From positions 1 to 40,248 of IMG/VR virus record IMGVR_UViG_3300046009_000507: a stretch of 40,248 nt of DNA. One strand, given 5' to 3'. Position numbers and translations under genes: made by a program. Positions 12,119 through 18,912 of the stretch are shown here, one piece after another. Source of the DNA: a virus. The stretch's first letter is position 1, and each line of letters begins with the position of its first letter. The notes beneath the pieces were generated by a model. That model saw only the letters and a list, made by a program, of their open reading frames with translations, had not been told where the DNA came from and searched no databases.

Positions 12119-12143
12119 TTAAAAACCCTCACTGTGGCTGCAT
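12119..12143 (+). promoter_or_regulatory. Phage promoter, G at -3, initiating into a hairpin
   Basis: Consensus match with core ACCCTCACTGTGGC; +1 near 12137. The initial transcript itself forms the hairpin of the next feature. Drives the nucleotidyltransferase, primase-helicase and polymerase genes. Confidence 0.92.
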
Positions 12144-17323: not shown

Positions 17324-17632
17324 ATGGCTAAGACTTTGAAACTGAACGTGTCCTTCCCCATGACCATCGTGGTCTCGACTGACACCATCACCGCCCTCAA
17401 GGCGACCCGTGAAGAAGCCCGTATGATCCCCGCTGAGAAGATCGCTGAGCTGACCGGCGAGACCAAGTTCCGCGCTGAGCTGTTCCGTGGCGACAAGTCC
17501 GAGGAAGAACTGCTGGAGCTGATCTACCGCGCAGGCATCCGCGAGTTCATCACCAAGGACATGCGCAACGAGATCGCTGGCAACGAGGCCCGGATTCGTC
17601 TGGGCAGCGTAAAGGTGACCTTCGATGAATGA
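17324..17632 (+). CDS. 5.5: gp5.5-like protein (possible H-NS-family antagonist)
   Basis: 102 residues (T7 gp5.5 99). The start (MAKTLKLNVSF, then Ser-x-Asp) and the C-terminal block (hydrophobic-Arg-x-x-x-Arg-Glu-x-Ile-x-Lys-Asp-Met) follow T7 gp5.5. T7 gp5.5 binds H-NS and lifts its silencing. In a Pseudomonas host the functional equivalents are MvaT/MvaU-type proteins, so that would be the target by inference. It overlaps gene 5.7 by eight bases. In T7 5.5 and 5.7 can be joined by frameshifting; here the offset would need a +1 shift and no slippery site is evident. Confidence 0.7.
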   Translation: MAKTLKLNVSFPMTIVVSTDTITALKATREEARMIPAEKIAELTGETKFRAELFRGDKSEEELLELIYRAGIREFITKDMRNEIAGNEARIRLGSVKVTFDE

Positions 17633-17834
17633 GTACCTGACGACCCTCTGGGGCATCAAGAAGGCTGCCCGTGCGTATCAGTCTGACTTCGTTCGTGGCC
17701 GCATCGCGCTGGTCAATGAGGCAGCTTGCCGGGGGCACATCTCGTGCCTCTCCACGGCTGGCAAGAACATGGGCTTCTGGTCGCTGACAACGGCTGGTCA
17801 GGAGTTCCTTTCCCAATATGGTAATGCCCTATGA
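17625..17834 (+). CDS. 5.7: gp5.7-like protein (sigmaS antagonist family)
   Basis: 69 residues, equal in length to T7 gp5.7. Clear match over the middle: YQSDFVRGRIALVNEAACRG, HISCLSTAGKN, then W-x-L/I-T and a terminal FL. T7 gp5.7 blocks host RNA polymerase with sigmaS, which gp2 does not inhibit well. Together with the gp2-like and gp5.5-like genes this makes a transcription-takeover set. Its stop overlaps the next start (ATGA). Confidence 0.88.
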   Translation: MNEYLTTLWGIKKAARAYQSDFVRGRIALVNEAACRGHISCLSTAGKNMGFWSLTTAGQEFLSQYGNAL

Positions 17835-17950
17835 GCTGCGTCTGTGGCTGTCAGGGCTGCCGTGGTGGCTGCTCCCCTTGGAGACCCTTGAGTCTCATCC
17901 CATGCAATCGGTGCGGGTTCCCCGACTGGCTGTCCTGTTTCTGTAACTAA
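17831..17950 (+). CDS. Cysteine-rich miniprotein (39 aa)
   Basis: ATG 17831 is inside the gp5.7 stop, so translation is coupled. Nine of 39 residues are Cys (3, 5, 7, 10, 14, 25, 28, 36, 38), as C-x-C-x-C-x2-C-x3-C followed by C-x2-C and C-x-C. This looks like a tiny metal-binding (zinc) knuckle rather than noise, since the reading frame stays open only for this length and sits tightly between 5.7 and 6. No similar T7 protein comes to mind. Function unknown. Confidence 0.65.
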   Translation: MSCVCGCQGCRGGCSPWRPLSLIPCNRCGFPDWLSCFCN

Positions 17951-17961
17951 GGAGGAACCCT

Positions 17962-18912
17962 ATGAGCAAACTTAAAGTGGGTCTGGCCTTCGACATGGAC
18001 TACCTCATCTTCTCGGCCATGAGCGCCGCTGAGGAAGAAGTGGACTGGGGCGAAGACGTATGGACGCTGAACTGCGACCACAAGAAAGCCCGTGACATTC
18101 TGTTCGGCACCATCAAGACCATCAAAGCGGACATCGCTGGGCAGCTCAAGCGCAAGTACAAGCTGGCCCCTGAAGCCTACGAGTTCGTTGACCTGTGCAT
18201 CCTGAGCGGTGACGACAACTGGCGTAAGGATGTCCTTGAGACCTACAAGGCCAACCGTAAGGGCAAGCGCAAGCCTGTGGGCTACCCGCACTTCTGCCAA
18301 GGCATCATGGATCACTTCGGCGACCGTGCCTTCAAGTGGCATGGGGTCGAGGGCGATGACGTGTGTGGCATCCTGATGACCAAGCCTGAGCTGGCTGGCT
18401 GCGACCGCGTGGTCTCGGTGAGCTGCGACAAGGACTTCAACACGGTGCCCGGCTACTTCTTCTGGCTGACCCAGATGGAGCTGGTCAAGAACGACGAGGC
18501 AACCGCTGACCTGCACCATATGTACCAGACCCTCAAGGGCGACACCACGGATGGCTATGGCGGCTGTCCGGGCGTTGGCGAGGCGTTCGGTGGTGGTCTG
18601 TGGGAGTGGCTGAAAGACCCTGAGTTCTTCTATCAGGCAACCAAGGTGATGAAGTCTGGTGCTCGCAAGGGCGAAGAAGTCTCCTACTGGACTTCCTGTA
18701 AGCGCGGTGACGAGCAGTTCGACCTGTTCCAAGGCCCTGACCTCTGGGCTTGCATGGCGTCTCTCGCAGCGAAGCAGGGGATGTCTGAGGAAGACCTGAT
18801 CGTGCAGGCCCAAGTGGCTCGTATCCTTCGGGCATCCGATTGGGACTTCGAGAACAAGCGTCCGATCCTGTGGCGTCCTCACGATTCCTCTCTGCGCCGC
18901 TCTGCTGCGTAA
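17962..18912 (+). CDS. 6: 5'-3' exonuclease
   Basis: 316 residues (T7 gp6 300). FEN-like nuclease: D11 in FDMDYLIF, SGDDNWRKDVLETYKANRK, the acidic cluster EGDDVCG, and SCDKDFNTVPG, which give the metal ligands and arch region. It removes RNA primers, degrades host DNA and aids concatemer formation. AAGGAGG precedes the ATG. Its TAA lies within the next promoter. Confidence 0.97.
   Translation: MSKLKVGLAFDMDYLIFSAMSAAEEEVDWGEDVWTLNCDHKKARDILFGTIKTIKADIAGQLKRKYKLAPEAYEFVDLCILSGDDNWRKDVLETYKANRKGKRKPVGYPHFCQGIMDHFGDRAFKWHGVEGDDVCGILMTKPELAGCDRVVSVSCDKDFNTVPGYFFWLTQMELVKNDEATADLHHMYQTLKGDTTDGYGGCPGVGEAFGGGLWEWLKDPEFFYQATKVMKSGARKGEEVSYWTSCKRGDEQFDLFQGPDLWACMASLAAKQGMSEEDLIVQAQVARILRASDWDFENKRPILWRPHDSSLRRSAA

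Follow-up and report, generated by a model that had tools for sequence, protein, structure and literature searches.

A 39-residue cysteine-rich microprotein gene in the slot between genes 5.7 and 6 of T7-like phages

In T7 (V01146) and phiYeO3-12, the position between genes 5.7 and 6 is occupied exactly by gene 5.9, which encodes a RecBCD inhibitor. Its product, gp5.9, is described as an acidic coiled-coil mimic of the DNA substrate of RecBCD (PMC9836394) and also as an inhibitor of MukBEF (PMC9836394; PMC7617805). T7 gp5.7, encoded just upstream, is described as a DNA-binding repressor of host RNA polymerase (PMC5569994). We analyzed the same slot in a viral DNA of 40,248 nucleotides (IMG/VR record IMGVR_UViG_3300046009_000507), the whole of which is called the window here. 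The window aligns with phage FRS at 99.98% identity over 40,242 bases and can be assigned to the 17A group of Ghunavirus.

The slot ORF and its neighbors

Translation of the slot ORF (Table 1) gives the 39-residue peptide MSCVCGCQGCRGGCSPWRPLSLIPCNRCGFPDWLSCFCN, with cysteines at residues 3, 5, 7, 10, 14, 25, 28, 36, and 38. This confirms an earlier sequence-only reading, which had pointed out a 39-residue ORF with nine cysteines between 5.7 and gene 6. The Cys spacings given there are also correct, though the closing C-x-C (C36/C38) was omitted. The computed pI and charge of the peptide are 8.1 and approximately +1.4, with a single acidic residue. Cysteine accounts for 0.82% of the residues in phage FRS (102 of 12,475 in 48 annotated proteins), and nine in 39 against this mean gives a binomial P of approximately 3e-11. 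Among 74,664 ORFs of 30–60 residues in 200 Markov-simulated windows, five contain at least nine cysteines and none reaches the fraction of 9/39. The codon-level tests described below support a gene more strongly than these statistics on Cys excess.

Table 1. Features in and around the 5.7–6 slot of the window.
Feature	Position	Strand	Relatives and support
Gene 5.7, 69 residues, upstream coupled gene	17625..17834	+	PHROG 1334, E 3e-31
Cys-rich microprotein gene, 39 residues, ATG to TAA	17831..17950	+	identical in 17A, FRS, and QAC; codon-level constraint in both modules
ATGA overlap of ORF start and 5.7 stop, putative termination-reinitiation site	17831..17834	+	similar overlaps in other slot ORFs
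N-module CVCGCQGCRGGCSPW, residues 3–17	17837..17881	+	alone in the 20-residue slot ORF of L077
C-module IPCNRCGFPDWLSCFC, residues 23–38, candidate four-Cys metal site	17897..17944	+	in slot ORFs of phi15, Bosely, and Stalingrad
Shine-Dalgarno sequence of gene 6, AAGGAGG, overlapping the ORF stop codon	17949..17955	+	similar TAAGGAGG in relatives
Gene 6 exonuclease, downstream neighbor	17962..18912	+	annotated exonuclease in relatives

For the upstream gene 5.7, tblastn finds matches in 1199 phage records, T7 among them. Start overlaps with 5.7 of the ATGA, GTGA, or TTGA type recur among other slot ORFs. The overlap in the window makes the translational coupling to 5.7, asserted in the sequence-only reading, a fair presumption. 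A GGAGG before the ORF start, present for most comparable slot ORFs, is absent in the window. At the other end, the TAA of the ORF (17948–17950) is part of TAAGGAGG, the Shine-Dalgarno (SD) sequence of gene 6, with 11 nt between the ORF stop and the ATG of gene 6. Similar TAAGGAGG sequences precede gene 6 in Eir4, Phylax-28, Bosely, and Stalingrad. The promoter-like sequence ACCCTCACTATGGC has 12 matches with at most two mismatches in the window, all on the + strand (chance mean 0.32). Since two successive matches, at 12125 and 18915, flank the ORF, it probably falls in the middle-gene transcript, as judged by analogy with the gene order of T7. Gene 5.5 in the window (17324–17632) encodes 102 residues, compared with 127–137 in most close relatives (Eir4, gh-1, and Phylax-28).

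Two modules and their stand-alone forms

The N-terminal half of the peptide has a counterpart in contig L077 (IMGVR_UViG_3300041407_000002), where the pattern CVCGCQGCRGGCxPW makes up most of a 20-residue ORF, MKLTYCVCGCQGCRGGCRPW. Like the window ORF, this ORF lies in the 5.7–6 slot, overlaps 5.7 at its start (ATGA), and retains the N-module at 14 of 15 residues, while gp6 and gp5.7 are 83% and 75% identical, respectively. Unlike the window ORF, it lacks the C-module, and its stop directly overlaps gene 6 (GTGA). The two N-modules differ at 11 nt (1, 1, and 9 at codon positions 1, 2, and 3), and only one amino acid is changed (5 codons identical, 9 synonymous, and 1 non-synonymous). The 12-residue Cys motif is unchanged despite eight silent codon changes (nine across the 15-codon module).

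The C-terminal half, with the pattern IPCxxCGFPDWLSCFC, is present in Troedvirus phi15 as the annotated ORF29 (CBZ42002.1, a hypothetical protein of 32 residues). ORF29 resembles the window ORF in its location in the slot, in its start overlapping 5.7, and in its C-module, which is identical at 14 of 16 residues against 61% identity in gp6. It differs in lacking the N-module, in place of which it has a short start, VKYCYT, and a tail at the C terminus. The C-modules differ at 12 nt (2, 3, and 7 at codon positions 1, 2, and 3), giving seven synonymous and two non-synonymous codons with two amino acid changes. Bosely and Stalingrad have unannotated slot ORFs of 25 residues; in these phages and in phi15, the ORF start overlaps 5.7 as GTGA. 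The comparison with Bosely is weaker (5 changes in 16 codons). The core PC-x2-CG[FW]PDWL-x-CFC is common to the slot ORFs of the window, phi15, Bosely, and Stalingrad, and C25/C28 and C36/C38 are invariant across seven aligned core peptides, a pattern compatible with one metal ion.

In a neutral simulation, substitutions matching the observed ones in number and kind were placed at random in 100,000 runs per module. Amino acid changes as few as those observed occurred in none of the 100,000 runs for the N-module and none for the C-module. Read in the two alternative frames, the changed codons are mainly non-synonymous, and stops interrupt the phi15 sequence. Since amino acid changes are few despite many silent differences, the peptide itself is evidently constrained, and coding and peptide-level function of the modules can be taken as established from one informative sequence pair per module. 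Because L077 has the N-module alone and phi15, Bosely, and Stalingrad have the C-module without the N-module, the window ORF is the sum of two modules that each stand alone in the slot of other phages.

The possibility of a chance ORF in a non-coding spacer, which the shortness of the ORF, its lack of an SD sequence, and its absence from close relatives might suggest, is negligible, being contradicted by the codon pattern, the amino-acid-level conservation of both modules, the Cys excess, and the recurrent start overlap in the slot. The ORF is thus a genuine, mostly unannotated gene, and it is presumably expressed. Its description as unannotated holds for FRS, QAC, and NC_048201, but the relative in phi15 had been annotated. 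Among seven annotated records with the C-module, a gene is called at this place only in the two of phi15, and in the other five (these three, Bosely, and Stalingrad) none is called; LN889995 is a record without any annotation.

In wider pattern searches, seven viral stretches match the N-module, the sole slot case being the L077 contig (as L096); the match in L095 was rejected as lying out of frame within a larger gene, and the other five were assessed by context only. None of 32 bacterial stretches looks slot-like; two (L108 and L121) match PF12669 in a Pfam scan, and two others (L116 and L118) look similar to it on visual inspection alone. The strict C-module pattern has no match in viral contigs beyond the contig of phi15 (1/1). 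A relaxed pattern gives 20 stretches, 19 of which are chance-like by frame and context, and the remaining one is phi15.

The C-module has thus already been deposited, as phi15 ORF29, without a function. In its main text, the paper on phi15 (PMC3079711) does not mention ORF29, gp29, ORF28, 5.7, 5.9, or cysteine. Literature searches on zinc- or cysteine-containing phage microproteins found nothing relevant. The two-module build, the 20-residue stand-alone gene, and the slot bias described below were not found in the literature searched, although this does not prove them to be undescribed.

The 5.7–6 slot in close and distant relatives

The ORF is identical in four database records (two of 17A, FRS, and QAC). 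In the next clade, 13 records are 95–96% identical over the stretch from 5.7 to gene 6, but their spans are 118–119 bases shorter and thus lack the ORF. At the three of these 13 junctions that were inspected (Phylax-28, Eir4, and phiPpMK2-1), 9 nt separate the end of 5.7 from gene 6; that of phiPpMK2-1 was read from the usual 5.7 end and gene 6 start, as its 5.7 is frame-broken. An apparent frame break of about one base affects gene 5.7 in the records of Stalingrad (L005) and phiPpMK2-1 (L036), through either real loss or sequencing error. Stamos is 95.5% identical to phi15 over the 5.7–6 stretch, yet has no ORF, and in gh-1-type phages 5.7 runs directly into gene 6 with a 4-nt overlap. As for conservation of the frame in close relatives, the sister clade lacks the gene outright, which is absence and not decay, whereas distant phages keep the amino acids of both modules. 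Such variable presence between close relatives is the behavior of an accessory gene, and the absence from the sister clade indicates that the gene is dispensable.

Several slot-carrying phages have an SD sequence (GGAGGTGC or similar) within the end of 5.7. It has been lost in the window and in Eir4 (GGTAAYGCC), where gene 6, as in Bosely, is preceded by a TAAGGAGG of its own. The loss of the inner SD together with the presence of a separate SD for gene 6 would fit a history in which the Eir4 lineage once had a slot ORF and then lost it, the SD being left as a scar.

We surveyed the slot in 27 named T7-like records, picked from BLAST rows and not at random; 25 belong to the Pseudomonas type (Ghunavirus, Troedvirus, Pifdecavirus, or close to these), and T7 and phiYeO3-12 make up the remainder. 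A slot ORF of 25–39 residues with CxxC-x(5-7)-CxC is present in eight of the 25 (FRS, phi15, Bosely, Stalingrad, phi 21A, Ghual01, PPPL-1, and Psari100M). Three (MR2, FMS, and Mudajogi) have solely a zinc-ribbon-like protein with a coiled-coil-like tail in the slot, and 14 have at most 9 nt between 5.7 and 6. In the phages other than FRS, the CxxC-x(5-7)-CxC ORFs measure 25–33 residues; these and the zinc-ribbon-like proteins mostly lack annotation. The IMG/VR count covers 31 contigs with a readable slot, counted by contig, some apparently being the same phages as the named records; contig 3300041407_000009 (incomplete) and L020–L022 (without a 5.7 match) are excluded. Seventeen of these slots are empty, four hold HNH endonucleases, and four are of the zinc-ribbon type, one of which also has the second ORF of PPPL-1. 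The rest comprise two larger CxxC proteins, a coiled coil without Cys, an acidic 73-residue ORF, phi15, and the N-module contig. As background, CxxC-x(5-7)-CxC occurs in one of 1,434 bacterial ORFs of 20–45 residues and in three of 1,009 distinct phage-locus ORFs, two of which are slot ORFs and one (L020) is chance-like. The 5.7–6 slot therefore acts as a site for cargo, with a bias toward tiny Cys proteins.

Peptides with x5 or x6 spacing, used singly as tblastn queries, matched only their own phage or weak noise, and homology to the x7 C-module is not visible; the likeness may be convergent. A weak match of the Psari100M peptide in Escherichia phage Shashou was rejected because it lies inside a larger protein. 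Psari100M (L090:706-1191) has three tandem unannotated slot ORFs of 61, 30, and approximately 72 residues; the 30-residue ORF carries CxxC-x6-CxC, and the third is a CxxC protein ending in RLKEVF, as does the 70-residue ORF of L081. The slot of PPPL-1 contains a zinc-ribbon protein and a 28-residue ORF. Zinc-ribbon proteins of 84–93 residues with a coiled-coil-like part are found at L033:1290-1627 (PPPL-1), L014:2750-3004, L015:359-613, and L029:1284-1565, with an apparent TTG or CTG start overlapping the 5.7 stop. The annotated exonuclease start of PPPL-1 runs over this protein, and internal ATGs serve as the annotated starts in FMS and MR2. HNH endonuclease genes lie in the slot at L009:2595-3008 and L016:227-640 and in L136 and L086 (HNH_3, E 7e-19 for L009). 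These endonucleases are a possible vehicle for slot exchange.

Proposed function and comparison with known proteins

With about an even chance of being right, we propose that the peptide is a metal-stabilized, host-binding accessory microprotein of the middle phase. The ORF would be translated as ribosomes terminate on 5.7 at the ATGA, on the middle DNA-metabolism transcript. Each of the two fused Cys modules would fold around one metal ion, zinc being the likeliest, with C25/C28/C36/C38 suited to one four-Cys site and C3/C5/C7/C10/C14 to a second in the N-module. The gene occupies what would be an exchangeable slot, used by T7 for the RecBCD/MukBEF inhibitor gp5.9. The likeliest role of the peptide would be to bind a host protein and then disable or redirect it during takeover, by protein–protein contact and not by DNA mimicry of the gp5.9 type. 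Candidate targets are the host machinery for DNA-end processing, the nucleoid, the transcription apparatus, or a defense system. The slot and the neighboring genes support the host-targeting role that the sequence-only reading had considered plausible, and the patterns agree with its view that the Cys spacing suits metal binding, as a compatible pattern only. That reading knew no T7 counterpart; by position, gene 5.9 is one, though no homology is visible.

A broader proposal, more doubtful than the preceding one, is that the slot mixes and matches metal-binding microproteins of 20–39 residues, which would act as minimal host-directed inhibitors that replace gp5.9 by an unrelated mechanism, with two modules, each sufficient as a gene, fused in the 17A group. 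If this is true, the slot genes are small enough to escape notice as a class though under amino acid selection. Conserved phage genes of 20–39 codons are overlooked in annotation, and small candidate host inhibitors can be tested singly in a defined slot whose counterpart elsewhere holds a known anti-RecBCD gene. The 12-residue Cys motif is a minimal functional unit and a candidate for metal and target tests.

Known families give partial likenesses. At thresholds up to E 1, the window ORF matches no family in Pfam, PHROG, or PADLOC, and the L077 peptide none in Pfam. In a profile search, the CxxCG half-site is shared with the zinc knuckles of ribosomal L40e/L37, RPB12, and TFIIB; the closing half-site of zinc ribbons is CxxC, whereas that of the peptide is CxC. 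Matches in the PDB are mostly weak and cover approximately 7–13 positions, the best (mt-LAF7, E 0.006) covering 12. A likeness to the N-terminal zinc finger of archaeal aIF1/DENR, which has the pattern CxxCGxPxxLCxC, was considered and rejected, as neither name is among the 51 distinct PDB sequences matched at E up to 10. Structure prediction from three sequences was uninformative (mean pLDDT 50).

It is improbable that the peptide is a functional replacement for gp5.9 that uses a different surface to inhibit the RecBCD of Pseudomonas (or the SMC complex) at the equivalent stage of infection. The gene lies in exactly the slot of gene 5.9, adjoining the gene 6 exonuclease, but this position is the whole of the support. 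The peptide is basic, in contrast to the acidic DNA mimic gp5.9 (computed pI 4.1, charge −8.5), and many relatives have no slot gene at all.

We give a similarly small chance to a metal or redox buffer, a mini-metallothionein sequestering or delivering zinc, iron, or copper. The density of cysteines would suit this role, as would the CGCxGCxGGC spacing of the N-module, which is that of the FeoB-associated Cys-rich membrane proteins (PF12669). However, PF12669 proteins have a membrane anchor, whereas the window peptide shows no hydrophobic helix by inspection and no Pfam match, and the L077 peptide does not match PF12669; the likeness is probably convergent. The C-module also conserves PDWL, a Gly, and aromatic residues, which suggests a fold or contact surface.

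A cis-acting leader, in which the act of translating so short an ORF would link 5.7 to gene 6 and expose the gene 6 SD, with the peptide as a by-product, is less likely still. The start overlap, the SD overlapping the stop, and the overlaps at both ends in L077 would suit such a role, and a predicted fold pairs GGGUUCC of the ORF with GGAACCC at the gene 6 SD (window 17915–17958). However, the fold does not outperform those of shuffled sequences (z −0.94), no such pairing is apparent by eye in phi15 or Bosely, and in relatives that lack the ORF, gene 6 is translated from an overlap or from its own SD. Retention of the peptide sequence through silent changes also argues against a by-product. 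Rfam gives no RNA element match.

Returning to the proposed host-binding microprotein, its closest described counterpart by position remains T7 gp5.9. Both are small and encoded between 5.7 and 6. Unlike the peptide, gp5.9 has no Cys and is an acidic coiled coil, with no visible sequence similarity. Because the charges are opposite (pI 8.1 versus 4.1), a DNA-mimic mechanism of the gp5.9 type is very unlikely for the 39-residue peptide.
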